Notes under the pieces: generated by a model
Database searches by the model: none
The model's input: only the letters and a program-made list of their open reading frames with translations
Told to the model about the DNA's origin: nothing
NCBI GenBank assembly: GCA_938031175.1
Contig: CALHGZ010000008.1
Coordinates: forward strand, 1-64,000
DNA length: 64,000 nucleotides
Origin: Candidatus Kapaibacterium sp.
GTDB lineage: Bacteria > Bacteroidota > Ignavibacteria > Kapaibacteriales > UBA2268
Direction: 5' to 3'
Program-made: the position numbers and the translations under genes
Shown: positions 5,593 through 64,000 of the stretch, piece by piece
Position numbering within the stretch: position 1 is the first letter of the stretch
Layout of the letters: every line of letters begins with the position of its first letter

Positions 5593-6201
5593 ATGAACTT
5601 GCTAAACATAAAAAACATCCTGATAGATTTTGGCGGCGTTTTATATCAGATTGATCCTATGAATTCAATCATTGAATTCAGTAAAATTTCCGGTATATCA
5701 AAGGAAATATTGGCATCTACAGAGTTCTACAACAACAACATTGCACCTTTCGAAAAAGGTATTTGCTCAGAAGATGATTTTAGAGTACACATCTCAAAAA
5801 TCTTAAAAATCAATTTATCCCCAAAAGAATTCGATGAAATTTGGCTAAAAACTTTAATAAAGATTTTTCCAGATTCATTATCAATCATAGAAAATTTAAA
5901 GAAGCAATATAAATTATTCCTATTGAGCAATACTAATATTCTGCATTATAAAAAATTCAGCATAGAATGCGAATCATTATTTAAGATTTTTGACAAAACT
6001 TACTTCTCTTTCAAGATCGGTCTTTTGAAACCTGAAAAGAAGATATTTAGATATGTTGAAAGTGACGCAGATATTAATCCTTTTGAAACACTATTTATTG
6101 ATGATACTTTAGCTAATATCAAATCAGCAGAAGAACTCGGATATCATACTTTATATTTGAGTAAACGTGAATTACTGTCAAAATTATTACACAATGTATA
6201 A
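5593..6201 (+). CDS. HAD-superfamily hydrolase
   Basis: LIDFGGVLYQIDP motif I, LLSNTN motif II, KPEKKIF and FIDDT motifs. Confidence 0.85.
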   Translation: MNLLNIKNILIDFGGVLYQIDPMNSIIEFSKISGISKEILASTEFYNNNIAPFEKGICSEDDFRVHISKILKINLSPKEFDEIWLKTLIKIFPDSLSIIENLKKQYKLFLLSNTNILHYKKFSIECESLFKIFDKTYFSFKIGLLKPEKKIFRYVESDADINPFETLFIDDTLANIKSAEELGYHTLYLSKRELLSKLLHNV

Positions 6202-6298
6202 AATTATTTACATTCAAAATACACATTATATACAAAAATGCAATTTTCATTATTATGAATTATATTATTTTGCATAAGCATAGATTACACTTTTAGCG

Positions 6299-7984
6299 AT
6301 GGAATCATTCTGGGATTTTAATTTTTTAGTAGTAGATGTAGAGACAAATGGCTCTAATCCTCAAAAAGATCGAATAATTGATATTGGCTGTGTCTTATTA
6401 AATAATGGTCAATTTGTAACCGAATTTTCATCTTTAATTAATCCACATCAGCATATTCCCCTTTACATTCAAAAAATGACTGGTATAACAAACGAACTTG
6501 CGTTCAATTCCCCCGAATGCGAGTCTGTTTTTTATGAATTCAATAAAATGATCTCCGGTGAAAATATAATTTTTGTAGCCCACAACGCTGCATTTGATTG
6601 GTCATTTATTAGTCATACATACCAGCGTCTCGGTTGGCAATTACCTAAAATACCACGTTTGTGTACATTAAAATTAGCGAGACGTCTATTCCCTGGTAAT
6701 ATAAGAAAAGGACTGGACAGCTTATCAAGTATTTTTAAAATTTCTATACATAACCGCCATCGTGCATTAGGAGATGCGAAAGCAACTGCTTTAATATTAA
6801 TCGAACTTCTGGAAAAGTCTCATTTTGAACACGATATCAATTCACTGGAACAATTGATTCAGTTTCAAAATTCGAGAATTAAAAACTATCTACTTAACAA
6901 AACAACCCAAAAAAAAATCGATAAAATGATTAAATCTTTACCTGATGAACCAGGCATCTATTACTTCAAAGATAAATCAGACAAGATATTATACATTGGC
7001 AAGGCTAAGTCTTTAAAAGATAGAATCAAATCCTACTTTTCTTCGACAGGACAAACTTCAAAAAAAATAAATAAGCTTATAAAAAGGATTGACAAAATTG
7101 ATTATATATGCACTGATACTGAGCTTTCTGCATTGTTATTAGAATCAAAAGAAATAAAAAAACACAAACCTGAATTTAATTCATTTGAACTCAGATATCG
7201 CAGGTTACCATTTATTAAGCTTACTTCGGATGAGGAATTCCCTGTTCTCGAATTATGCTTCAATATAGATAATCCTAATGCCGAATATTATGGCCCATTT
7301 CGTTCAAAATTCTTAGCTGAAGAGATTCTTGAAATATGCAGAAAAAAATTTAAACTTAGAAAATGCGAAAAAATGCCAAAACCCAACATAAATAATACTC
7401 CTTGCTTATATTATCAAATCGATAAATGTTTAGCTCCATGTACTATGATTAGCGATAATAAACAATACAATGACGAAATTAAAAAAGTTAGAGAATTTTT
7501 AAGCGGTAATAATGATGGTATTATAACAATATTTCGAAACATAATGCACAATTATTCAAAAAAATTAGAATTCGAATCTGCCTTAATTATGAAGAGCAAA
7601 ATTAACGATATAGAAAAAGTTTTTGGGAAAGCAATGCATACCAATTCATCCATTAATGATTACAATCAAATACTAATATTGCCAGCCTCAAACAAATACA
7701 AAACCGTCGAACTGTTTTTCATAAGAAATGGCAAGCTCATAAGTCAAGTTGTATTCGGTAGAAAAGCCCCAATCCAAAAATTGAGAAATCAAATATATGA
7801 GATTTATTTCAATGGCTTTACGCCATCACTTTTCTATACAAATGAAGATATCGATGATCTACGCATAATAAGTTCCTGGCTAAATAGACAATCAGATATA
7901 TACCAGATTGAAATTAAAGGATATACATTGGAGGAAATCATTTCTAAAATGGAAATGACTATTAAAAACATTCCATTTCTTTAA
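6299..7984 (+). CDS. DnaQ-like 3'-5' exonuclease fused to UvrC-like GIY-YIG endonuclease
   Basis: N-terminal VVDVETNGSNPQKDRIIDIG exonuclease motif and HNAAFDWSFI; then LPDEPGIYYFKDKSDKILYIGKAKSLKDRIKSYF (GIY-YIG) and YYGPFRSKFLAEEIL, CLYYQIDKCLAPC. Confidence 0.9.
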   Translation: MESFWDFNFLVVDVETNGSNPQKDRIIDIGCVLLNNGQFVTEFSSLINPHQHIPLYIQKMTGITNELAFNSPECESVFYEFNKMISGENIIFVAHNAAFDWSFISHTYQRLGWQLPKIPRLCTLKLARRLFPGNIRKGLDSLSSIFKISIHNRHRALGDAKATALILIELLEKSHFEHDINSLEQLIQFQNSRIKNYLLNKTTQKKIDKMIKSLPDEPGIYYFKDKSDKILYIGKAKSLKDRIKSYFSSTGQTSKKINKLIKRIDKIDYICTDTELSALLLESKEIKKHKPEFNSFELRYRRLPFIKLTSDEEFPVLELCFNIDNPNAEYYGPFRSKFLAEEILEICRKKFKLRKCEKMPKPNINNTPCLYYQIDKCLAPCTMISDNKQYNDEIKKVREFLSGNNDGIITIFRNIMHNYSKKLEFESALIMKSKINDIEKVFGKAMHTNSSINDYNQILILPASNKYKTVELFFIRNGKLISQVVFGRKAPIQKLRNQIYEIYFNGFTPSLFYTNEDIDDLRIISSWLNRQSDIYQIEIKGYTLEEIISKMEMTIKNIPFL

Positions 7985-8072
7985 AGTTCTACAAAGAAAC
8001 AAAAAACCTGATTATTCGTTAATATCATAATGATTTTAATTTTTCTTCTATTAACTCGTAATCAAAATTATT

Positions 8073-10349
8073 ATGAGATATATTCATAAATTTATTTTAC
8101 TCTTGTTACTAGTGCATTATTTGCTTTCGGCTAATCCTGAACCACCTGCAAATACCTCAATCGGTGGTTTTATACGTGACAAAGAAACAAATGAGACACT
8201 CATTGGTGTAACAGTATTTCTCGAAGGAACACGTTTCGGCACTTACACAAATAAAAACGGATATTATTCATTGGCAAATATTCCACCCGGCGAGTACACC
8301 CTTGTAATTAGCTCAATCGGCTATGAGAAATTTTCCGAAAAAATTAAACTAAGTAAAGGCTCTTCAATACGGAAAGATTTTCTGTTAAAACCTCTTGCAA
8401 TTACAACAGAGGGCATTTCTGTTGAAGCCGAGAGAGAATTGGAAAAAAGGGAAATAACAATTAGCAAAGTTAACGTACCTGTTTGGCAAATTAAGCAAAT
8501 TCGAATTGGTGGCGAATCTGATGTGTTCCGCTCTCTACAATACTTACCGGGCATATTGACTTCTTCACAATTATCCAGTGGACTTTTTGTTCGTGGAGGT
8601 TCGCCCGATCAAAACTTAATTCTCATTGATGGTTCTACAGTTTATAACCCCACTCACCTTTTTGGATTTATCTCAACATTTAATCCCAATGCTATAAAAG
8701 ATGTTGAACTTATAAAAGGCGGATTTCAAGCAGAATATGGTGGGCGTCTATCTTCTGTTTTAAATATAACCCAAAAAGAAGGAAACCGTAATAAATTTGA
8801 AGGTATTACATCTATTGGTGCAATATCTTCGAGAATCTCAATCGAGGGACCAATTGCTAATGGTTCTTGGTTCATGGGTGCAAGAAGAACGTATTTCGAA
8901 TTGATAAAACAAATCTTACCTAAAGATCCTGAAAATCCTTTACCCGACTTCAGTTTTTACGATATAAACGCAAAAATAACACAGGATTTAGGGAAAAATG
9001 ATAAACTCTCTTTCAGCGGTTTTCTAAGTTCGGATAAACTGGACTATGTTGGTTTTGGCTTAACTACAGGCTTAAATGTCGGCAACCGAGTTGGAGCCTT
9101 AAGATGGAACCGAATAATCAGTGAAAATTTGTTTTTATCAACCAATCTTTCTGCAAGTTATTATTTTAACAATTTTCAGGGTGACCAATCTGGCTATGCA
9201 TTTGAAATTGAAAATTCTATCACAGATTACACTTTGAAAAGTTCTTTGGAATGGTTTACTAATGAAAAAATTACTCATAAATTTGGCTTTGAAACATCAA
9301 AATACACTTTCCTGTTTTTGCAAAATCTCACCGGTATAGCAGATTCAACAACACAGACAGGTAATAGTGGCGGTGGTCTTACAAATTTACTTATCCATGA
9401 TTGGAATCACTCGCTTTTTAGCCAAATCAACTACCGCTTGGACGAGCTAACCTCACTTCAAGGTGGTTTTAGAATAAATTATTGGTCAAATAGTGACAAT
9501 TTAACATTTGACCCAAGATTAGCTCTTCGATATCAATTAACTTCAGATATAGCCCTAAAAGGCTCTTGGGGAATGTTTCATCAAAATTTGAGGCTCGCTT
9601 CGCAAAATGACTTTTCATTTTTCGATACCTGGCTTCCAACCGATTCCACATTACCTGCTGCCTCAGCTATGCATTATGTTTTTAGCATCGAATCAACTCC
9701 TTTTTTAGGATATGACCTAAATTTCGATATCTACTATAAAAAATTAAAAAACATCAGTGAACTAAATAATTTAATAATCGAAGCTCGTACTGCGAAAGAT
9801 GTACTGCTTGTCGGTAATGCCGAAGCTTGGGGCGCTGAAATATTTTTGCAAAAAAAATATGGGAAAATCAATGGATGGATTGGTTATGCTCTTGGTTTTA
9901 TTAGTGCCAGATTCGATTCTATAAACAATGGAGAAAGTTTTAGACCCAAATATGACAGAAGACACGATTTAAAAATAGTCGTTAATTATATACTCGATGA
10001 AAAATGGGAATTCGGAATTAATTTTACATTCCAATCTGGACAATCATACACAGGTGCAACATCTCGCTTTCAGACCAAACTACCCGGTTCAACAATTGGA
10101 CGAGGAATAGTTGTACCATCTCAACGATTCGGTTTAAGACTTCCACCATCCCATCAACTAAATTTCAATGCTGTATATAATTATAAATTATTTGGGCTCG
10201 ACTCGAGGGTAATTTTGGATATTTTCAATGTCTATAACCGACGAGACATTTGGTTCAGATACTACAATACACGAGACGATGACACTAAAGTTGAGGACGT
10301 TAAGCTATTACCAATTATTCCATCTATATCTGTCGAATTAAAATTTTGA
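8073..10349 (+). CDS. TonB-dependent receptor with carboxypeptidase-like regulatory domain
   Basis: GGFIRDKETNETLIGVTVFLEGTRFGTYTNKNGYYSLANIPPGEYTL; plug motif LFVRGGSPDQNLILIDGSTVYNPTHLFGF; beta-barrel C-terminus. Confidence 0.92.
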   Translation: MRYIHKFILLLLLVHYLLSANPEPPANTSIGGFIRDKETNETLIGVTVFLEGTRFGTYTNKNGYYSLANIPPGEYTLVISSIGYEKFSEKIKLSKGSSIRKDFLLKPLAITTEGISVEAERELEKREITISKVNVPVWQIKQIRIGGESDVFRSLQYLPGILTSSQLSSGLFVRGGSPDQNLILIDGSTVYNPTHLFGFISTFNPNAIKDVELIKGGFQAEYGGRLSSVLNITQKEGNRNKFEGITSIGAISSRISIEGPIANGSWFMGARRTYFELIKQILPKDPENPLPDFSFYDINAKITQDLGKNDKLSFSGFLSSDKLDYVGFGLTTGLNVGNRVGALRWNRIISENLFLSTNLSASYYFNNFQGDQSGYAFEIENSITDYTLKSSLEWFTNEKITHKFGFETSKYTFLFLQNLTGIADSTTQTGNSGGGLTNLLIHDWNHSLFSQINYRLDELTSLQGGFRINYWSNSDNLTFDPRLALRYQLTSDIALKGSWGMFHQNLRLASQNDFSFFDTWLPTDSTLPAASAMHYVFSIESTPFLGYDLNFDIYYKKLKNISELNNLIIEARTAKDVLLVGNAEAWGAEIFLQKKYGKINGWIGYALGFISARFDSINNGESFRPKYDRRHDLKIVVNYILDEKWEFGINFTFQSGQSYTGATSRFQTKLPGSTIGRGIVVPSQRFGLRLPPSHQLNFNAVYNYKLFGLDSRVILDIFNVYNRRDIWFRYYNTRDDDTKVEDVKLLPIIPSISVELKF

Positions 10350-52545: not shown

Positions 52546-53562
52546 TTAATAGCTCATTGAATCTATATTTACCTTGCCACGGAATACCCAATAAATACCT
52601 ATGGTATAAGCCAATACAAAAGGAATACCAATAATTGCCATTGTTAACATAACCGTAAGGGTTTTTTGCGAAGAAGAAGCATTATATATAGTCAAGCTAT
52701 AAGCCGGATCAATGCTCGAGATAACGATATTTGGGAAAATTCCTATAGCAAAAAGTGCTATCAGAGCAATTATGCTTGCACAAGAAGACAGAAAAGCTCT
52801 GAACTCTCTTTTATGATGAATTTCACGTGGAATATTAGCTATTGCAAGCATATTCAACAAAGCTACAATAAATAATTCAGGATGATTTCTAAAATGCTCT
52901 ATCATACTTTGCTGGTAAATCAAAGTCCACATAGTTATCATCACATAACAAATCACAAAGAAAATTATACAATTATTTACCCAAGCTCTTACTTTATTTT
53001 GTAGTTCACCTTCTGTTTTCATCACAAGATATATAGAACCATGCATCATAAAAAGAGCTATTGTTGTAACTCCAACCATTATAGCATAAGGATTTAATAA
53101 TTCGAAAAATCCAATGTAAGCTTCCTTGTCAGCATCTATTGGAATGCCCTGTATTATATTCCCCAGTGCAACACCCATAACAAATGCTATCAAAATACTT
53201 GACAATGAGAACGCTACATCCCAATTTCTTCTCCAGGATTTTGATTCACGTTTACTTCGAAATTCAATTGACACAGCCCTGAAAATTATCACAAGTAACA
53301 AAAGCATCATTGCTGGATAGAAGCCGGAGAATACCGTTGCATAAACTTCGGGGAATGCTGCAAATAATGCTCCGCCACCAGTAACAAGCCATACTTCATT
53401 GCCATCCCATACTGGACCAATTGAATTCAACAAAATGCGCCGTTCTAAATCATCTTTTACTAGTAAATGCAATGCCCCAACGCCTAAATCAAATCCATCA
53501 AGTATGGCATAGCCCGTAAAAAGGACGCCTATTAAAATGAACCAAGTTATTTGTAATTCCAT
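52546..53562 (-). CDS. cydB: Cytochrome bd ubiquinol oxidase subunit II
   Basis: LIGVLFTGYAILDGFDLGVGALHLLV; GPVWDGNEVWLVTGGGALFAAFPEVYATVFSGFYPAMMLLL. Confidence 0.95.
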   Translation of the reverse strand: MELQITWFILIGVLFTGYAILDGFDLGVGALHLLVKDDLERRILLNSIGPVWDGNEVWLVTGGGALFAAFPEVYATVFSGFYPAMMLLLLVIIFRAVSIEFRSKRESKSWRRNWDVAFSLSSILIAFVMGVALGNIIQGIPIDADKEAYIGFFELLNPYAIMVGVTTIALFMMHGSIYLVMKTEGELQNKVRAWVNNCIIFFVICYVMITMWTLIYQQSMIEHFRNHPELFIVALLNMLAIANIPREIHHKREFRAFLSSCASIIALIALFAIGIFPNIVISSIDPAYSLTIYNASSSQKTLTVMLTMAIIGIPFVLAYTIGIYWVFRGKVNIDSMSY

Positions 53563-53594: not shown

Positions 53595-54962
53595 TTAATT
53601 TCCAAAAATTGTCTTACGTTCAGTCAAAGTTGTTTCAATATTTTCAGCACTTTCTGGTCCTGTCTTGATTTTCCTGTCGAGTAGGAATATAAAAAGAATG
53701 AACAGAAGTGAATAAATTATCCCAAAGAGAATAATTGAAAACAGAACTTCATTAAATGAGACAACTTTTGAAAGAGCATCTTTAGTCCTCAATAATCCAT
53801 ATACAATCCAGGGCTGACGGCCAATTTCCGCTGACATCCAGCCAAGCATATTAGCTGAATGTGGAAGAAGTATTGAAAAAACACCAATCCAAAGATACCA
53901 CTTCGCTGTTAGTAATTTTTTATTTATCCATAACACAAGTCCAATCCAACTTAATAAAATTAGTAACAATCCAATTCCAACCATGAAATGATAAGATTGA
54001 AATACAATATTTATTGGCGGTCTGTCCTCTGGTGCAAACTCTTTCAAACCAGTAACAGGTTTATTAAAATCTCCGTAAATTAAAAATGATAATAATTTAG
54101 GTATTTTAATTCCATAAGTTATTTCATTCTTTTCGTCAACCCACCCCACTAAATATAAATCACCGGGAGCTGTTTCGAAATGCCCTTCGAATGCAGCCAT
54201 TTTCGCTGGTTGAGTCTGAGAAACCTGTACCCCACTATAATGTCCCGTAATAAGTTGGGTAATAGAGGCGATTACAGCTACAACAAGAGCTATCTTTAGC
54301 CCAGCAATAGCATAATCAATATGTCTTTTCTTCAATAAATAATATGCGCTGACACTAATCACTAAAAAAGCACCTGTTAACCAACAGGCAGAAATAGTGT
54401 GGGTTAACCTTTCAATGGTAGATGGATTAAAAACCATTGCCCAAAAATCCGTTATTTCTGCTCTTTGTGAAAGCCCTTCCCCTACAATGTGAAAACCTGC
54501 AGGTGTCTGTTGCCAGGAATTAGCAACAAGAATCCAAACGGCACTAAGATGGGCACCTAATGCAACCATTATAGTCGAGATAAAATGAACTCGTGGACTA
54601 ACTTTGTTCCAGCCGAAGACCAATATCGCGAGAAAACCTGATTCAAGGAAGAAAGCAAAAATACCTTCCGCTGCTAATGCGCTTCCAAAAACATCCCCAA
54701 CGTATCGGGAATAGGTGGCCCAATTGGTTCCAAACTGGAATTCCATCACTATACCACTGGCAACACCCATTGCAAAAATTAAGGCAAAAATCTTCACCCA
54801 GAATTTGGTAAGATTTTCATACATTTTATTACGTGTCTTAATGTACATACCTTCCATTATAACAAGGATTAGTCCTAAACCGATGCTCATCGGGGGGAAC
54901 AAATAATGAAAGCCAACAGTAAACGCAAATTGTATACGGGATAATAGTTCTACATCTAACAT
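53595..54962 (-). CDS. cydA: Cytochrome bd ubiquinol oxidase subunit I (short Q-loop size class)
   Basis: [87 protein letters not shown]; 455 aa. Confidence 0.95.
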
Positions 54963-55058: not shown

Positions 55059-56402
55059 TTATTTTTCGAGCATAGGACCGTAATGCTCAAACATATAATC
55101 GGCAATTGCTTCAGCTTCTTTGGGCTTGAGTGCTTGATTAGGCATTGCTGGGTATTCAGGGTCAACTTTGACTGGATTGAGCAAAAACTTGACTAATTCA
55201 TCTTTTTTACCGATATATTTAGTCAACACCAACTTATGTGGCGGTCCAACGAGCTTTTGATCAAATTGATGACAAGCAGTACATTTCACCTTATATAATT
55301 CCTCACCGTTGATACTTTCCTGAGTCCTGCCAAGTGAAGCCAATTTGGCTTCCTCGTATTGTTTATATTCATCTGCCAAATAAGCAAATTGCTGTTTATT
55401 TGCGACAGTGAAAGCACTTTGCTCTTTAATTATTGTAAAGAAAAATACAAGAATCACCAGATAAAAAGCAAATGAGGAATAACCCATTTTATTATTTCTA
55501 ACTATTACATAGATTATATGAATGGTATAAAACGAAATTAAAAGAACAGCCAGAGCAAATCCAAACATAAAGTAGGATACAGCATATTTTGGTGTTAATA
55601 CAAGATTAAGAATAAGAAATATTGGCTGGAATGCCATAAAAAATAATGATATGGAAGCGTTTAGTTTCTGTGCTTTTTCACCATATTCAGGAGTAAATTT
55701 ATAAGTATATTTGTCCCAGATAAAGAATTTTACAATAAAAGCCATACCTGTTACTGCCAATCCTGCAGTAATGAAATTGATGTAAATTATTATTGCTGGT
55801 ATAGAAAAGAGAGTGGATATGAAATCAGCATAAACCCATCTTTCCTTATCAACCGCTAAAGAAGAAGAAGAAATTAATATCCAAAGCGAGAAAAATAAAA
55901 ATACAAAGCCCAAAATTCCCGCCCTCGCTTTAAGTCGGCTTAATGCTTGTGTATAATGGTAAATATCCCCCTCTTCAATTGGCTCTTTAGGAGAAATAGT
56001 CGCCATTTGTAAAGATAATTGCAATGAATGTTTATATGAATAAGCACCGATTAATGCTATTAAGAAAAAAACAAATCCCCAAATTAAATAGAGCACAACA
56101 GGTGAATCTGTATTATATAATAATTGAGCATAAATAACAATTATTGAAATATAAGGCACGATACCCAAGGCAAATGCAATTGTTTTATTTGGAGTAATTA
56201 GATTAATATAGTCTCTGGATAGCAATTGTTCTGTTTGACTTCCCTTTTTACTTTTAAAATTGAAGTATAATGATAATAAATAGCTACCAAATAATGTGCC
56301 CGAGTATGTTATAAATATTAGTTTAGCTAAAATCAATAAATAATTTAATAGTTGTATATTTGATTCTTTTTGCAATATTATTAAATCATTAAATATGCCC
56401 AT
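55059..56402 (-). CDS. Polytopic membrane protein with C-terminal monoheme cytochrome c domain
   Basis: About eight hydrophobic segments, then GEELYKVKCTACHQFDQKLVGPPHKL ... YPAMPNQALKPKEAEAIADYMFEHYG (CxxCH and a downstream candidate Met ligand). Confidence 0.85.
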   Translation of the reverse strand: MGIFNDLIILQKESNIQLLNYLLILAKLIFITYSGTLFGSYLLSLYFNFKSKKGSQTEQLLSRDYINLITPNKTIAFALGIVPYISIIVIYAQLLYNTDSPVVLYLIWGFVFFLIALIGAYSYKHSLQLSLQMATISPKEPIEEGDIYHYTQALSRLKARAGILGFVFLFFSLWILISSSSLAVDKERWVYADFISTLFSIPAIIIYINFITAGLAVTGMAFIVKFFIWDKYTYKFTPEYGEKAQKLNASISLFFMAFQPIFLILNLVLTPKYAVSYFMFGFALAVLLISFYTIHIIYVIVRNNKMGYSSFAFYLVILVFFFTIIKEQSAFTVANKQQFAYLADEYKQYEEAKLASLGRTQESINGEELYKVKCTACHQFDQKLVGPPHKLVLTKYIGKKDELVKFLLNPVKVDPEYPAMPNQALKPKEAEAIADYMFEHYGPMLEK

Positions 56403-56425: not shown

Positions 56426-57295
56426 TCAAATTAATCTATCTAAAGAAATAAGTACAACCGTCAATAAAACATAAAAATTCACCATTCTGAAAGCAAATGA
56501 ATAATTTGGAACTTTTGAAAATTGATCAAGTAATTCCTTGGTTCGCCAAATAAGCCAAAATCCTGCTAACACGAGTGAAATAAATATTACAGGATTGTTA
56601 ATATCATTAAATATTATAATTAATATACAACTCAGTACCAGTGCTATTATCCAAACAAATGTTATGCGGCTGGATTTACTGCTGTTGAATATATCAGTTA
56701 AAACGGGAAAACCAGCTCGCTTATAATCTTCTTCATAAATCAGCATAAGAAGCCAAAAATGCGGTACTTGCCAAATAAAGATGAATAAATTGAAAATTAA
56801 TAAGTGCAAGTCCAAAAGATTACCACCGGCAGCAATCCAGCCAATTGCAGGAGGAATTGTTCCGACTAAGGCACCAGGGATAACAGCAAAGGCGGTTTTC
56901 TTTTTCAAAGGAGTGTAAAAAAGATTATACCAAATTATTGCAAATATTCCTAATAAAAATACTGAAAAATTACCGGTTAAATATAAAAGTAAAAGTCCGG
57001 CTATAGTTAATGTCAATGCGATTATGAATCCGGTCAAAGGAGTGATTCTCTTTGAAGGAAGTGGTCTGAAACGTGTCCTGTTCATAATTGCATCTGTCCT
57101 TATTTCCTGGTATTGATTGAAAGCAGAAAGACCTGAAGATAAGATGTAAACACCCATTATAGGCAATAACATATTATATGATAATGCCCCTGAATAAAGG
57201 ATATAAGCAACTGAAGAAGAGATTGCGATAAAAAATGTTATTTTAAATTTCGTTAAATCCCTAATAATACTAATATAGTCACTAAAAGTTTTCAT
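56426..57295 (-). CDS. ctaB: Protoheme IX farnesyltransferase
   Basis: UbiA family; NQYQEIRTDAIMNRTRFRPLPSKRITPLTG; IPGALVGTIPPAIGWIAAGG; WQVPHFWLLMLIYEEDYKRAGFPVL. Confidence 0.95.
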   Translation of the reverse strand: MKTFSDYISIIRDLTKFKITFFIAISSSVAYILYSGALSYNMLLPIMGVYILSSGLSAFNQYQEIRTDAIMNRTRFRPLPSKRITPLTGFIIALTLTIAGLLLLYLTGNFSVFLLGIFAIIWYNLFYTPLKKKTAFAVIPGALVGTIPPAIGWIAAGGNLLDLHLLIFNLFIFIWQVPHFWLLMLIYEEDYKRAGFPVLTDIFNSSKSSRITFVWIIALVLSCILIIIFNDINNPVIFISLVLAGFWLIWRTKELLDQFSKVPNYSFAFRMVNFYVLLTVVLISLDRLI

Positions 57296-57302
57296 CTTAT
57301 GT

Positions 57303-57971
57303 TCAATTTGCTGAAATATTTGTTCCTGTTTTCACAGTATCGGCTGGAGCTGATTCTTTCGATTCCATCCCTTCATTAAGCCATTTTTCAAATTCATCTT
57401 TCGGCAAAACATGCAATTTAGTGTACATATATGCATGATTTAAACCACAATATTCAGCACAAGCAATATCAAAAGACCCAGTTTTTATAGGCTGAAGTAT
57501 CATATAAGTTGTTCTGCCTTGAAGAACATCCTCCTTCAACCGGAATGCAGGTATATATAAACTATGGTTTACATCAATTGAAGTCATTTCGAGTTTTGTA
57601 GTTTCATCAACTGGGATATATAAAGTATCAGTTTTTTTACCATTCGGGTATTCAAAATTCCATTTCCACATCTGAGCTTTGACTTTTACAGTAAGCGCTA
57701 AATCAGCTACATTTCTTAACTCATAGAAATCAACGTATCCATACCAAAACATACTCAATACAATTACAAGCGGAACAGCAATCCAAATCACTTCCAAAGC
57801 GACATTTCCTTCGATTTGTTTAGCTTTGGGATGCCTTTTCCTGTTGTATTTAATTACAAAGTAAATCATTGCTGCCGTAATTCCTAAAAGCAGAATAACA
57901 GAAACTGATATGATATAAATCATTACCATATCAACCGATTCAGCATAAGCTGATGCTGAGGATAACATCAT
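57303..57971 (-). CDS. coxB: Cytochrome c oxidase subunit II (CuA)
   Basis: VIWIAVPLVIVLSMFWYG; QMWKWNFEYPNGKKTDTLYIPV; CAEYCGLNHAYMYTKLHV CuA site. Confidence 0.95.
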   Translation of the reverse strand: MMLSSASAYAESVDMVMIYIISVSVILLLGITAAMIYFVIKYNRKRHPKAKQIEGNVALEVIWIAVPLVIVLSMFWYGYVDFYELRNVADLALTVKVKAQMWKWNFEYPNGKKTDTLYIPVDETTKLEMTSIDVNHSLYIPAFRLKEDVLQGRTTYMILQPIKTGSFDIACAEYCGLNHAYMYTKLHVLPKDEFEKWLNEGMESKESAPADTVKTGTNISAN

Positions 57972-57979
57972 AGTTCTCC

Positions 57980-58291
57980 TTATCTATAAAATACGTCAAA
58001 TCCCATTAATACAAATACAATAACCAGTACCAAAAGTGCTATGGCAAGAAAAACCTTAAAAATCGGTTCATCATATTTAATGTGCATAAAAATCATAATT
58101 ACAAGTGCTGATTTAATCGCAGCAATCAAAAGAGCTGTGAATAGTGTGAAGTTTCCAAGGTCGAGCCCTGCAACAGCAACCGTTAAGATTGCAAGTGATA
58201 GTAAAGCAAGCCAGCTTAAGACATAAGTACCATAACCGATTAAATGTGATTTCTCGTGTTCATTTTTATCTGTTGCCATATTCTGCCTCAA
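57980..58291 (-). CDS. Cytochrome c oxidase subunit IV family (CtaF/CoxD-like)
   Basis: Three-TM small protein between subunits II and III; IAAIKSALVIMIFMHIKYDEPIFKVFLAIALLVLVI. Confidence 0.85.
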   Translation of the reverse strand: MRQNMATDKNEHEKSHLIGYGTYVLSWLALLSLAILTVAVAGLDLGNFTLFTALLIAAIKSALVIMIFMHIKYDEPIFKVFLAIALLVLVIVFVLMGFDVFYR

Positions 58292-58935
58292 TGTAATAAA
58301 TAGAATAATGGAAAGAGAAATATCCAGATTAAATCAACTAGGTGCCAATATAATCCTGAGTTCTCTAATTTCATATAATTGTCTGCGGTAATTTTATTCC
58401 TTGCTACAAATACAAGCATAAACAATAATACTACTATTCCGATTAATACGTGCAAACCGTGAAGACCAGTCATAGCATAATACAAACCAAAAAAGATTAT
58501 TTCACCATTACTTTTTTCAGCTAATTCAGTGGCTCCAGGATATATTCCGTGATGAAATTTAGCACTCCATTCAAAGTATTTATTTACAAGAAATGCAAGA
58601 GCCAATGAAATTGTAGCTATTATAAATATCAGTGATAATGTCTTTTTATTTCTTTGAATTGCTGCAATGGATAATGCCATTGTTAAACTACTTGTCAGAA
58701 GTATTAATGTATTTACAGTTCCAAGAGCCATATCAAGTTCTTTGGCTGAAATTTGGAATTCAAATGTATATTCAAGTCTATAAGCCATATAAAGCAAAAA
58801 CATCCCACCAAAAAGCAATACCTCAGTAAAAAGGAATAGCCACATACCAAGTTTTGCTCCAACATCATCTCTATGTATGTGAGCATGACCTCCTGTTAAA
58901 TGTTCAGTATTTTGTAGCTCACTTGCTGTGCTCAT
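58288..58935 (-). CDS. coxC: Cytochrome c oxidase subunit III
   Basis: KLGMWLFLFTEVLLFGGMFLLYMAYR; FGLYYAMTGLHGLHVLIGIVVL; GLYWHLVDLIWIFLFPLFYLLH. Start refined to ATG 58935, overlapping coxA by 17 bp. Confidence 0.95.
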   Translation of the reverse strand: MSTASELQNTEHLTGGHAHIHRDDVGAKLGMWLFLFTEVLLFGGMFLLYMAYRLEYTFEFQISAKELDMALGTVNTLILLTSSLTMALSIAAIQRNKKTLSLIFIIATISLALAFLVNKYFEWSAKFHHGIYPGATELAEKSNGEIIFFGLYYAMTGLHGLHVLIGIVVLLFMLVFVARNKITADNYMKLENSGLYWHLVDLIWIFLFPLFYLLH

Positions 58936-60571
58936 ATTCCACCTTTTCTTCTTCGTAATAATGATAATCATAAGGTCCGTGCTTGATTTCAGGTATTTCC
59001 CTGAAATTCTCAAGTGGCGGAGGTGATGGCACCTGCCATTCCAAAGTTAAACCTCCCCAGGGATTCATTGGTGCATTTTTTGGCCCTCTCACTGCTTTAA
59101 TTAAGTTAATGATCATAATTGTCAATCCAGCTATTAAGACCCAAGAACCTATAGTGGAGAGGATATGCAATCCTGCGTATTCAGGTAAGTAATCGTAATA
59201 TCTTCGCGGCATTCCCATATATCCTAAGATGAACATTGGGAAATATAGCATATTAAATCCTACAAACATTATACCGACAGCTATTTTAGCCCATTTCTCA
59301 TTATACATTTTCCCGAACATTTTAGGGAACCAATAATGAATTGCAGCAAAAAATATGAATATTGTACCGCCAAACATTACATAGTGAAAATGGCCCGGAA
59401 CAAAATATGTATCATGGACATGGATATCAGTTGCAATTGAGCCAAGTACAAGTCCTGTTAAACCACCAATTGAAAATAGAAATATAAATGCTAATACATA
59501 TATTAATGGAGTGCCCAAATCAATAGAACCTTTATAGAGTGTTGCAACCCAATTGAAAACTTTGACTCCGCTTGGAATGGCAACAATAAATGTCAAAAAT
59601 GAGAATATCCAGCGCGAAGTATCGCTCATTCCACTTGTAAACATATGATGTCCCCAAACAAGATAGCCGATTATTGCTATTGATAAACTCGAGAAAGCAA
59701 TTGCTTTATAGCCAAATATTGTACGCCTTGCAAAGGTTGGAATAATTTCAGAAACAACACCCATTGCAGGCAAAATCATAATATAAACAGCTGGATGTGA
59801 GTAAATCCAGAATAAATGCTGGAACAATATAGGATCGCCACCAAGAGTTGGATCGAATATCCCAACATAGAACAATCGTTCCAACATCACTAATATAATA
59901 GTTATTCCCACAACAGGGGTTGCAACCACTTGAATCCAAGCCGTTGAATAAATAGCCCAAACAAATAAAGGCATCTTGAAAAACGTCATTCCGGGAGCCC
60001 TGAGGCGATGAACTGTTGTTACAAAATTCAAACCTGTTAATATAGAGGAAAATCCAAGTATGAAAGCTCCCAACAAAGGCAAGATAACATTAGTGCTTGT
60101 ATATCTACTACTGTATGGTATGTAGAATGTCCATCCAGTGTCTATTGGACCACCGCTTAAAAAGAGGGAGCTTAGTGCAAAAATAGCTCCTATTAGATAA
60201 AGCCACCAGGATAGAAGATTCAATCTCGGAAAAGCTACATCTTTAGCACCAATTTGAATTGGAAGAAAAAAGTTTCCAAAAACAGCTGGAATACCCGGTA
60301 TGATAACTAAAAAAATCATGATGATGCCATGCAAAGTAAAAAGTGCATTGTAAGTTTGGGCATCCACAATAGTTTTACCTTGGCTAAGCATTTCAAATCT
60401 CATCAAAAAGCCAAGAAGAACACCAACGACAAAGAATGTAGTTAGAGAAACCAAATATAAGATTCCAATTCTCTTATGATCTGTAGAGAGAATCCATGCT
60501 AAAATGCCTTTATGTTTGCCTTTATATTCAAGATAATCTACACTATTGACATCTAATACTTGACTATTCAT
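58919..60571 (-). CDS. coxA: Cytochrome c oxidase subunit I, A2-type
   Basis: FTLHGIIMIFLVIIPGIPAVFGNFF; HLFWIYSHPAVYIMILPAMGVVSEI; VWGHHMFTSG; HDTYFVPGHFHYVMFGG. Confidence 0.97.
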   Translation of the reverse strand: MNSQVLDVNSVDYLEYKGKHKGILAWILSTDHKRIGILYLVSLTTFFVVGVLLGFLMRFEMLSQGKTIVDAQTYNALFTLHGIIMIFLVIIPGIPAVFGNFFLPIQIGAKDVAFPRLNLLSWWLYLIGAIFALSSLFLSGGPIDTGWTFYIPYSSRYTSTNVILPLLGAFILGFSSILTGLNFVTTVHRLRAPGMTFFKMPLFVWAIYSTAWIQVVATPVVGITIILVMLERLFYVGIFDPTLGGDPILFQHLFWIYSHPAVYIMILPAMGVVSEIIPTFARRTIFGYKAIAFSSLSIAIIGYLVWGHHMFTSGMSDTSRWIFSFLTFIVAIPSGVKVFNWVATLYKGSIDLGTPLIYVLAFIFLFSIGGLTGLVLGSIATDIHVHDTYFVPGHFHYVMFGGTIFIFFAAIHYWFPKMFGKMYNEKWAKIAVGIMFVGFNMLYFPMFILGYMGMPRRYYDYLPEYAGLHILSTIGSWVLIAGLTIMIINLIKAVRGPKNAPMNPWGGLTLEWQVPSPPPLENFREIPEIKHGPYDYHYYEEEKVEYEHSK

Positions 60572-60572
60572 T

Positions 60573-61349
60573 TTAATCTCCCTTATTTTGCTTATTTTTT
60601 CTTCCTTTAATTAAAAGTATGGCGAAAAAAGCCCCGATAGCTAAAAATATTACTACACCTGCAACACGGGTAAAATTAAAAACATATTTTCTACCCTCGG
60701 GGTCATAGCTATAGCAATATTGTAATATTTTACTGATCGTTGGATTCCATTTGTTCTGACTTGCTTCGATTACTGCCATTTTTAAATCGAAAGGTAGAAA
60801 TTGTGTACCTAATAAATAGCGTGATATTTTCCCCTGAGGTGAGATAACTATTAAAGTAGCCGAATGAATGTAATCATCTTTACCATCGGACTTGAAATAA
60901 AATCCAGCTTGGTCAGTTATTTTTTGAATTGTCAAGCTATCGCTTGTAAGGAATTTCCAATCTTCGGAATTAATCTTACGTTTAATACCTGATAAATATT
61001 GCTTCTGCCATTTTTTTGCCTTATCAGGTCCTTCTCTATGATCAAAACTAATGGACAATATTCTGTAATCTTTACCTGGTACTATATCAGAACGGTCAAT
61101 TACCTCTGCAAGTCCTGTTTGAAGCGGACTGCAAATTCCCGGGCAATGAAAATATACAAAGGCAATTACTATTGGTTTATCTGCAAGCTCTTTTAGTGTT
61201 ATATCTTTACCATCTTCATCTATAAATTTTAAGTTCAAATCTATAGTTTGCCCTAACTTTTCCAAAATACCAACTTCTGGAGCTTTCTCGTTGGCATAAC
61301 TGAAATTATATAAGTTTAAGAAAATTATGAAAAAGTATAAAATTAACAT
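60573..61349 (-). CDS. SCO1/SenC-family copper chaperone
   Basis: PIVIAFVYFHCPGICSPLQTGLAEVI (CxxxC); YIHSATLIVISPQGKISRYL; C-terminal TM. Confidence 0.92.
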   Translation of the reverse strand: MLILYFFIIFLNLYNFSYANEKAPEVGILEKLGQTIDLNLKFIDEDGKDITLKELADKPIVIAFVYFHCPGICSPLQTGLAEVIDRSDIVPGKDYRILSISFDHREGPDKAKKWQKQYLSGIKRKINSEDWKFLTSDSLTIQKITDQAGFYFKSDGKDDYIHSATLIVISPQGKISRYLLGTQFLPFDLKMAVIEASQNKWNPTISKILQYCYSYDPEGRKYVFNFTRVAGVVIFLAIGAFFAILLIKGRKNKQNKGD

Positions 61350-61443: not shown

Positions 61444-62382
61444 CTAATTTATTGATTTTAAAAATTCGAATAACTGTTCTTTCTCCTTTGTACTTAAATT
61501 CAGAGCAGTTGTTTTAATCGCATTCGATTGCACTAACCTATTTAAATATGCCTCAAAATTGGAAAATTCATTCATCCATTCCGAATTTTTAATAAAAGCA
61601 TAGTAAGTTAATTCATAATCAAAGGCTATTTTCCTAAAAATCTCGGCTACAGCTTGATTATCATCCAAAAATGTATTTATTTTTGAAGCTTTTTTATTCA
61701 ATTCTTGATTTTCATTTGATAATTTTATCATAGCTAATGCCACTGGAATTTGATTTTCGGAGAATTTCCCTTCCGACAATCTATATTCAATATCTAATTG
61801 TTTTAATTCATCTTCAGTATCAATCGGATAATCCGCTGAAAAGGTCCTGATGTAATGTATTATTGCAAATCTTTCCTTAATTGGTAAGTATTCATAGGCG
61901 ACCATTGCCGTACCAGGTATTCCTTCTTCAAGTGTCTTATATAACTGTGAAATTTTTCTTCCATTTTTCCAACCATCTGAAGACTGCAAATTCCTTGGAG
62001 CTGGATTTAACCCGGCACCTGCTATTCCATCGCCTTTGCCTTCTGCTCCGTGACAGGAAGCACAATTGGATTCGTAAAGTGTCTTACCTTGAGCTATTAG
62101 TTCATCATTAGGTTTCGAAAGCAACTTAACATCGACTCCTTCGAGTTTAATTCCCTTCTTCTTGGCAATATCTTTAAAAGGCTCGGCAAATTTACCTTCA
62201 GGCGGTACTTTATTAGCAGTTAAAACTGGTAAGCTATCTATATAAAATAAACCGCCGATAATCACAAAAATTATAAAAAATATGTAAACAATTCCAAACC
62301 AACGTATCGGAGTTTTTATTACTGCTTTGAAATTTATTTCGTCTTCGTATTTATGATTGTTCCCCATATTCATATACTTCAA
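61444..62382 (-). CDS. Membrane-anchored cytochrome c associated with ACIII/oxidase
   Basis: N-terminal TM; GKTLYESNCASCHGAEGKGDGIAGAGLNPAPRNLQSSDGWKNGRKISQLYKTLEEGIPGTAM. Confidence 0.9.
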   Translation of the reverse strand: MKYMNMGNNHKYEDEINFKAVIKTPIRWFGIVYIFFIIFVIIGGLFYIDSLPVLTANKVPPEGKFAEPFKDIAKKKGIKLEGVDVKLLSKPNDELIAQGKTLYESNCASCHGAEGKGDGIAGAGLNPAPRNLQSSDGWKNGRKISQLYKTLEEGIPGTAMVAYEYLPIKERFAIIHYIRTFSADYPIDTEDELKQLDIEYRLSEGKFSENQIPVALAMIKLSNENQELNKKASKINTFLDDNQAVAEIFRKIAFDYELTYYAFIKNSEWMNEFSNFEAYLNRLVQSNAIKTTALNLSTKEKEQLFEFLKSIN

Positions 62383-62398
62383 TAATTTTCAATTCATT

Positions 62399-63589
62399 TT
62401 ATAATCGGAATTCCATAGCTCGTTTTAATTTCGGATCTCCAATCGGTATTAAATTTCTATTCTTGGCAGCAAGATTAAATACTACAATAATGAGACCAGT
62501 TGCTAAAATTATAACACCGAGTTCAATCCAACCAAAAATTGCATTGTCTTTACTGTAATTGGGTGCTATAAGCCAATATAAATCATAAAAATGTGCGGCA
62601 AGTACCCAAATTGATACAAATTTTAATCGCCTAGGATTTTTCTTTGATGTCTGAGATACTAACAATGCATAAGGAATAATAAATCTTACAAATATTAAAC
62701 CAATTGAAACATATAGCCAGCTACCTTCTCCGCGTTGAATATACCAAAAAGTCTCTTCGGGTAAATTCGCATACCAAATTAACATAAATTGACTAAAAGC
62801 AATGTATGCCCAGAAATTCGAAAAGGCAAACATTAAAGCACCTAAACTGTAGTAATGGTCTTCTGTTATGCCCTTAGGGAGATAACCAGCTTCATTTAAG
62901 ATTACTGAAAACAATGTAACTACTGCAAGTGCTGCAAGTACACTACCGGAAAAATAATAAACACCAAAAATTGTAGAATACCAATGAGGCTCCAAACTCA
63001 TTAGCCAATCGAGTGCAATAATTGTCATTGATACTGCAAAAAACAGCATGAATATAGCTGAAAATTTTATATTTTGAGTGGTAAATTTCTGATCTTTGCT
63101 CAAATCCTGCTTTTGAGAACGACTTGTAAATATCCAGTAAAACAAAGACATCAAAATAAATATAACTATAAATCTCACCACAAAAAATGTCTCATTTAAA
63201 TATGGTCTTTTACCTGCTAAAATTGGATCACTTTCGATTGCTTCCAAGTGCGTCCAATGGAATGGTGTATGCAAATCTAATAGAACGGGAAGTGCAAGTA
63301 TAGGTAAAATAAGAACCAAAGATGCTAAAAATTCTGTGATACGTCTAAAAGGTACGCTCCAAACAGCTCCAGCTAAATATTCAAGTGCTATTAGAAATAT
63401 TGAACAAAGAGAGATACTTGCAACAAATGAAAATAGCAATATAATATTGAACGATGCTCTGACATAGTCAACCGAATAGGCAATTGCTAAAAGAGCAATT
63501 CCAATTACAGTAAGTATTATACCGATTGTGAATACTTTACCTGGAAGAGGTTTTTTCGAATATTCCAAAGTGTAATCCGTGTTACTCAT
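62399..63589 (-). CDS. Alternative complex III quinone-binding-like membrane subunit (ActF-like)
   Basis: 396-aa polytopic protein between two c-type cytochromes; TLEAIESDPILAGKRPYLNETFFVVRFIVIF-like region, FSNFWAYIAFSQFMLIWYANLPEETFWYIQRGEGSWLYVS. Confidence 0.85.
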   Translation of the reverse strand: MSNTDYTLEYSKKPLPGKVFTIGIILTVIGIALLAIAYSVDYVRASFNIILLFSFVASISLCSIFLIALEYLAGAVWSVPFRRITEFLASLVLILPILALPVLLDLHTPFHWTHLEAIESDPILAGKRPYLNETFFVVRFIVIFILMSLFYWIFTSRSQKQDLSKDQKFTTQNIKFSAIFMLFFAVSMTIIALDWLMSLEPHWYSTIFGVYYFSGSVLAALAVVTLFSVILNEAGYLPKGITEDHYYSLGALMFAFSNFWAYIAFSQFMLIWYANLPEETFWYIQRGEGSWLYVSIGLIFVRFIIPYALLVSQTSKKNPRRLKFVSIWVLAAHFYDLYWLIAPNYSKDNAIFGWIELGVIILATGLIIVVFNLAAKNRNLIPIGDPKLKRAMEFRL

Positions 63590-64000
63590 TTAAATCTTCC
63601 TCCCGGGCATTTAAAGCTCTTTGCAAAGCCCTTATGTAATTAACAATTTGCCATCTTTCGATTGGTTCCAATTGGGATGCATATGATGGCATAATATTTT
63701 GCCCAACTGTTATAACGTGATATATTTGTCCGTCGGTCCAATTTCTGAGCTTATCAGAATGTAAGCTTGGTGGATTTGGAAATTGATTATTCAGACGGCT
63801 GTCACCTTTGCCAAAATATCCGTGACAGGGACTACAAAAGGTATTGTAATGCTCTTTCCCTTTTTTTAGATGATATTCATTCATCAATACTGGATTTATA
63901 AGATTTTTTGCCATTGTATCAGGCAATCCACTATAAACATATGGAAAATTCCCTCTCGAAACAGTGCCGGGGACAGGTGTTCGCATACCAAAACCATCAC
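63582..64000 (-). CDS. Alternative complex III cytochrome c subunit (ActE-like), N-terminus truncated by the window edge
   Basis: MRTPVPGTVSRGNFPY; HYNTFCSPCHGYFGKGDSRLNNQFPNPPSLHSDKLRNWTDGQIYHVITVGQNIMPSYASQL. The frame stays open to position 64000. Confidence 0.85.
   Translation of the reverse strand, partial: DGFGMRTPVPGTVSRGNFPYVYSGLPDTMAKNLINPVLMNEYHLKKGKEHYNTFCSPCHGYFGKGDSRLNNQFPNPPSLHSDKLRNWTDGQIYHVITVGQNIMPSYASQLEPIERWQIVNYIRALQRALNAREEDLNE

Follow-up and report, generated by a model that had tools for sequence, protein, structure and literature searches.

The gene at positions 55059-56402 of the window, as we term the whole 64,000-nucleotide stretch of Candidatus Kapaibacterium sp. 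DNA analysed here, probably encodes a membrane-tethered monohaem cytochrome c of the ACIII-aa3 chain that is built on a haem-less, bd-like scaffold and carries electrons from ACIII to CuA. This reading is drawn from genomes, and we put its probability at roughly 0.68. The gene, its domains, ligand conservation, operon, co-occurrence and homology were computed here, with searches confined to the window's phylum, so that the taxonomic range is a lower bound. A single-sequence search of the genome contigs returned one relative, and no relative was found among viral contigs. The features of the window that enter the argument are these:

52546-53562, minus strand: cydB (PF02322), a neighbour judged incidental
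53595-54962, minus strand: cydA (PF01654), a neighbour judged incidental, not conserved among relatives
55059-56402, minus strand: target gene, for a 447-residue eight-helix membrane protein with a C-terminal cytochrome c (ORF, translation, 47 relatives)
55062-55349, minus strand: class I cytochrome c domain, residues 352-447 (PF00034, solved class I relatives)
55143-55145, minus strand: Met420, probable distal haem ligand (98% conserved)
55269-55283, minus strand: CTACH haem c attachment site, residues 374-378 (invariant in 47/47 relatives)
55398-56402, minus strand: membrane part, residues 1-335, by sequence related to the partner subunit of CydA-like proteins but haem-less (hhalign 98.8-99.1%, no conserved His)
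56426-57295, minus strand: ctaB, haem O synthase of the UbiA family (PF01040)
57303-57971, minus strand: cox2 with CuA domain and no CxxCH (PF00116, PF02790, sequence)
57980-58291, minus strand: cox4 (PF03626)
58288-59013, minus strand: cox3 ORF (PF00510), whose true start lies inside the ORF since the ORF overlaps cox1
58919-60571, minus strand: cox1 (PF00115)
60573-61349, minus strand: sco, copper chaperone (PF02630)
61444-62382, minus strand: second monohaem cytochrome c of the cluster (PF00034), present in most target clusters and a rival final electron donor
62399-63589, minus strand: actF, with relatives that occupy this position in act clusters and an order as for MROS_0041
63582-63986, minus strand: 3' part of an actDE fusion (PF11821 ActD plus cytochrome c on L146:1586-2815), the full ORF extending to about 64814 of the contig, beyond the window

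A gap of 23 bp separates the target gene from ctaB upstream and one of about 96 bp from cydA downstream, and all three genes are co-directional. The original prediction, which gave no strand, had described the ORF as encoding about eight hydrophobic segments, one CxxCH site and a candidate Met ligand; this description holds for the minus-strand ORF, whose 447-residue product displays about eight hydrophobic segments in family-mean hydropathy, a CxxCH at residues 374-378 and Met420. That this is a real gene follows from the recovery of relatives at 28-46% identity in dozens of genomes, with C374xxC377H378 kept in 47 of 47 relatives and Met420 in 98%. The C-terminal region combines the CxxCH, distal Met and Pfam match of a class I cytochrome c, PF00034 being significant over residues 365-437 (E 4e-6), and its relatives among solved class I cytochromes are of the Aquifex c555/c552 type (E 1e-14 and 1e-6 in a PDB search). 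The sixth-haem region of F. johnsoniae ActA (6BTM chain A) also matches the target cytochrome domain, albeit weakly (E 0.006, residues 49-86). The cytochrome c domain and both termini are predicted to be periplasmic because the loops after helices 1, 3, 5 and 7 are positive, a topology taken from charges in the sequence and not from a topology program.

Gene order among relatives ties the family to ACIII and its oxidase. Of the 41 neighbourhoods of relatives that were fetched, 38 have the gene within a cluster of the form act-(cytochrome c)-sco-cox1-cox3-cox4-cox2-ctaB, a few of these 38 clusters being on short contigs that end before the act genes. It lies directly after ctaB in 34 of them, between cox2 and ctaB in three, and after cox2 in one in which no ctaB was found, and in most relatives it is the last gene of the act-cox-ctaB cluster. 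Additionally, of 21 genomes with this cox1, 20 have the gene, and in the remaining one the contig stops right after cox2, before ctaB. Two cox1 matches (G034:C40:3086-4702 and G008:C115:29227-30849) have stop codons inside the aligned stretch, which may be alignment ends or sequencing errors.

Clear relatives of the gene occur in 41 of the 297 genomes of the phylum sample, and a more distant relative, L089, occurs in another genome of the phylum (G113). When the same sample was searched with the ActA of the window genome, 41 strong matches (E <= 3.5e-78) were followed by a gap to 1e-57, and the 41 gene-bearing genomes are exactly the 41 with this short five-haem ActA clade, an agreement that is inflated by shared descent and that was obtained with an ActA threshold set after the gap was seen. 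The gene is absent from same-class genomes with a different ActA, such as G215 (L185), in which CoxB carries the haem.

The location of the docking haem c is known to differ between systems, lying on the N-terminal mobile sixth-haem domain of ActA in F. johnsoniae and on the CoxB cytochrome domain in R. marinus, and Sousa et al. proposed that the ActA sixth-haem domain appears to functionally replace the CoxB cytochrome domain (PMC8552683, PMC5928083); published work also cautions that the haem chain described so far might not hold in every system (PMC8552683). We counted CxxCH motifs per protein in act and cox genes. In gene-bearing genomes, ActA is a protein of 189-217 residues with five motifs (four in one case) and no sixth haem in 20/20 act clusters; CoxB is free of haem c in 32 of the 37 clusters counted and carries one in the other five. 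Another 20 act clusters, taken from genomes that lack the gene, divide into five with an ActA of 427-466 residues and six motifs together with a haem-free CoxB, ten that combine a five-haem ActA with a one-haem CoxB, four without cox genes nearby, and one (L184) with neither docking haem but a dihaem cytochrome in the cluster. These ActA and CoxB motif counts, with and without the gene, suggest that the target protein fills a third position for the docking haem. A strict complementarity of docking haems was also considered, and is weakened by the five clusters that have both the gene and a haem-c CoxB. Like the ActA domain of the F. johnsoniae ACIII (PDB 6BTM), the target would interpose a single haem c between the ACIII haem wire and aa3, but the F. 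johnsoniae domain lies within ActA, whereas the target is a separate gene product on an eight-helix anchor and its ActA is short. It likewise resembles the CoxB domain of the R. marinus caa3 as a tethered haem c that would feed CuA in an ACIII-linked oxidase (PMC5928083), although in caa3 the haem c is fused to CoxB, which in most target clusters carries none.

In the mechanism that we propose, the eight-helix part would anchor the cytochrome and would probably be a structural subunit where ACIII meets the oxidase, without haem b. The periplasmic cytochrome c would take electrons from the ACIII haem wire (ActA, ActDE and possibly the second cluster cytochrome) and deliver them to CuA of CoxB, and would thereby replace the haem c carried elsewhere on the ActA N-terminus (aa3 type) or on CoxB (caa3 type). 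The direction of electron flow, the physical presence of the protein in the supercomplex, and CuA as the acceptor are what we infer. Support comes from published precedent for a docking haem that is mobile between subunits (PMC5928083; PMC8552683). On the opposite side stand the five of 37 clusters in which the gene coexists with a haem-c CoxB, a genome (G337) whose sole copy is at nosZ, and the second monohaem cytochrome of the cluster, which could be the donor. Least certain in this scheme are the assignment of the last transfer step to the target rather than to the second cluster cytochrome, and the role of the scaffold.

It is possible, but unlikely, that the second cytochrome (61444-62382) or ActDE feeds CuA and that the target acts mainly as an assembly or supercomplex scaffold, its cytochrome domain being auxiliary or a branch carrier. 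The presence of the second cytochrome in most target clusters favours such an arrangement, as does G263, a 99% complete genome that, though one genome, is the most informative case found. In its cluster, act genes, the second cytochrome, cox3, cox4 and the target gene precede genes for a metal P-type ATPase and for CcoNO and CcoP of a cbb3 oxidase, and no aa3 cox1 was found genome-wide. The G263 copy is located as follows:

L190 (G263:C33:96000-113000), ORF 5903-6943, minus strand: target copy in a cluster that has cbb3 genes in place of aa3 cox1/cox2

This copy ends after about 340 residues, with the membrane part present and the cytochrome domain absent, which suggests from this one genome that the cytochrome domain goes with a CuA oxidase and that the membrane part has its own role beside Cox3 and Cox4. 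However, conservation of CxxCH and Met is strict in all settings with aa3, and the retention of the second cytochrome in G263 though aa3 is gone argues that this cytochrome is not tied to CuA. The second cytochrome was also not found in L060, in which act, sco, cox and target genes are all present.

Considerably less probable still is that the protein is a general membrane-bound cytochrome c for several periplasmic reductases (NosZ, NrfA, aa3) and is not dedicated to the oxidase. What lends this idea some weight are paralogues beside nosZ and nrfAH clusters:

L090 (G337:C1:2552000-2570000), 6925-8202, plus strand: G337 paralogue, after nosZ-nosL-nosD-nosF-nosY and before a doxX-like gene
L084 (G184:C1:3360000-3378000), 7774-9063, plus strand: second copy of G184, near nrfAH and an Rrf2-type regulator, then a doxX-like gene

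In G337, moreover, the copy at nosZ is the only one despite an act-cox (aa3) cluster, which is without a copy of its own. Nearly all copies nevertheless lie within the act-cox cluster, and the family tracks one ActA clade exactly.

The L090 paralogue is possibly a membrane-bound electron donor to N2O reductase, and the search matched just one other cytochrome in the window genome (G000:C2:224679-224864), which adjoins nosZ. NosZ, like CoxB, takes electrons at CuA, and donation to CuA may therefore be the common denominator. An unfused counterpart occurs in two genomes of another family that have no ActA match (L187 and L188), in which a partner-type protein and a separate small cytochrome c directly follow ctaB, at the same cox-cluster position as the target and near genes for a Rieske protein and cytochrome b, not ACIII. 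From these loci, the cytochrome-plus-scaffold module would seem to belong where a complex III equivalent meets an oxidase.

The membrane part proved far more difficult to place than the cytochrome domain. Searches of Pfam, NCBIfam and PDB with the protein and with family profiles yielded nothing convincing for it; the target does not match PF01654 at E <= 1, one relative does so at E 0.004, below the cut-off, and direct profile comparisons with CydA, CydB, COX1, CtaB, ActF and COX3 gave no significant relationship. The original prediction did not recognise the protein as ActA-F, CydA/B/X or an oxidase subunit, and this is upheld: it is none of ActA-F and CydA/B/X, nor a core subunit of the oxidase. 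An AlphaFold model from a two-sequence input was poor (pLDDT 50, pTM 0.29). A relationship to CydA-like proteins surfaced only via intermediates, namely a 334-residue protein in G230 (L117) and the 455-residue L089 protein in G113, which has a C-terminal cytochrome c. Each is the second gene of a two-gene unit whose first gene encodes a CydA-like protein with its own CxxCH, and a partner gene is similarly encoded with a CydA-like protein in L106-L111, L187 and L188; inspection of L107, L187 and L188 showed Rieske and cytochrome b genes alongside. No Pfam or NCBIfam model for the partner family was found.

The target membrane part aligns with this partner family at hhalign probabilities of 98.8-99.1% (E about 1e-17, about 290 columns), the partners with CydA-like proteins at 94-96%, and CydA-like proteins with CydA at 97.9%, while unrelated membrane families used as controls reached at most 2.8%. 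Direct comparison of the target with CydA-like proteins gave 68-91% over 213-226 columns, as against 98.9% and then 94-96% through the partner family. In a FastTree phylogeny the target family forms one group (split support 1.0) with L117 and L089 as nearest relatives. By these profile comparisons, the homology of the membrane part to the partner family is firm and its membership in the wider CydA superfamily likely. The partners (L117, L089, L106-L111, L134, L136 and L139) share this homologous membrane part, and L089 even has the architecture of the target, an eight-helix part joined to a cytochrome c. Partners nevertheless have an invariant helix-1 His and stand in a unit with a CydA-like gene, whereas the target has neither and belongs to the aa3 cluster; CydA-like genes are absent from target clusters, and the sole PF01654 match in the window's own genome (G000) is the canonical CydA. 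From CydA itself, subunit I of the bd quinol oxidase and a distant profile relation reached through intermediates, the target differs in having no Pfam match, no haem ligands and a different operon. The two-subunit CydA-like units (L107:2135-6407, L117:3191-5671, L089:7094-10025 and L187:5582-10156), in which the CydA-like protein often has a cytochrome c, are possibly complex III variants or cytochrome c-dependent bd-like enzymes.

Histidine ligands distinguish the target family from these relatives. The helix-1 His is present in 11/11 partners and in 0/46 target-family sequences, all of which have F, L, Y or V instead, and the helix-5 His, present in L117 and L089, is retained in 6 of 46. 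None of the His residues of the membrane part is conserved among the 47 relatives; the H295 column is H in 19 of 47 and the SYKHSLQL histidine column in fewer than 30%, while the conserved residues of this part include Ser44, Gly80, Pro83, Gln93, Pro260 and Tyr298. Partner homology combined with the loss of the histidine ligands leads us to place the origin of the membrane part in a bd-like partner subunit that bound haem, the haem itself having since been lost. The original prediction had offered the membrane histidines (SYKHSLQL, FYTIHIIYVI) as possible haem b ligands and had itself named family-wide conservation as the matter on which this would turn; the membrane part is without conserved haem ligands, and the haem b proposal is refuted. 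We entertain, at somewhat less than even odds, a more specific scenario in which a haem-stripped bd-superfamily subunit was recruited as an obligatory structural subunit of the supercomplex, holding the docking cytochrome c at the ACIII/aa3 interface, with relatives doing likewise for NosZ. The membrane part would then contribute to structure or to a proton path in its own right, independently of the cytochrome, as suggested by its retention in G263 with cox3 and cox4 and without Cox1 and Cox2.

A further proposal of the original prediction, a haem b-containing quinol- or oxidase-linked carrier possibly coupling the bd and heme-copper branches, we regard as very improbable: cydAB is adjacent and co-directional in G230 as well as in the window, where the stretch from the target gene to cydA has no terminator-like site, and the membrane part is distantly related to CydA-like proteins, but that part has no conserved His, cydAB follows the target gene in just 2 of 39 clusters (the window and L085, in G230), and no co-occurrence with CydA was found. 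In the family of the window genome, the gene and CydA occur independently (both in 7 genomes, the gene only in 9, cydA only in 8, neither in 6). The missing terminator-like site makes co-transcription with cydAB possible in the window, though not as a family trait. We judge cydAB to be an incidental neighbour, and the oxidase-linked electron carrier of the original prediction very probably survives as regards the heme-copper oxidase, though not with a bd link or haem b.

One member of the family has been discussed previously. The act-cox gene order of G238 corresponds one for one to M. roseus MROS_0045-0033, including four CxxCH in ActA, and by family and operon position the target-family member is MROS_0033:

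G238:C1:34868-36184: MROS_0033

In the portions of the M. roseus papers available to us, MROS_0033 is described as a class I soluble cytochrome c551/c552 and proposed as an ACIII-to-oxidase electron shuttle (PMC3534657, PMC5492636), and it is reported in proteomes only of aerobically grown cells, together with CoxI, CoxII, ActC and ActDE (PMC5492636). The functional idea is therefore already proposed for one member; those portions do not mention the membrane anchor, the family, its ancestry or the pattern of haem relocation. The label of a soluble c551/c552 is at odds with the sequence, which encodes an eight-helix membrane part, about eight hydrophobic segments being found across the family, M. 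roseus included.

We favour the ACIII-aa3 role on the combined grounds of the act-cox cluster (38/41), the ActA-clade match (41/41), the docking-haem counts, the loss of just the cytochrome domain in G263, where aa3 is absent, the nosZ paralogue and MROS_0033. If this reading is true, at least three interchangeable sites for the docking haem c would exist, namely the ActA N-terminus, CoxB, and a separate protein on a haem-less bd-like scaffold, and the picture of a soluble shuttle in Melioribacter would be corrected. An unassigned family would also gain a testable role, and a haem protein fold would have been reused as a structural subunit of a supercomplex.
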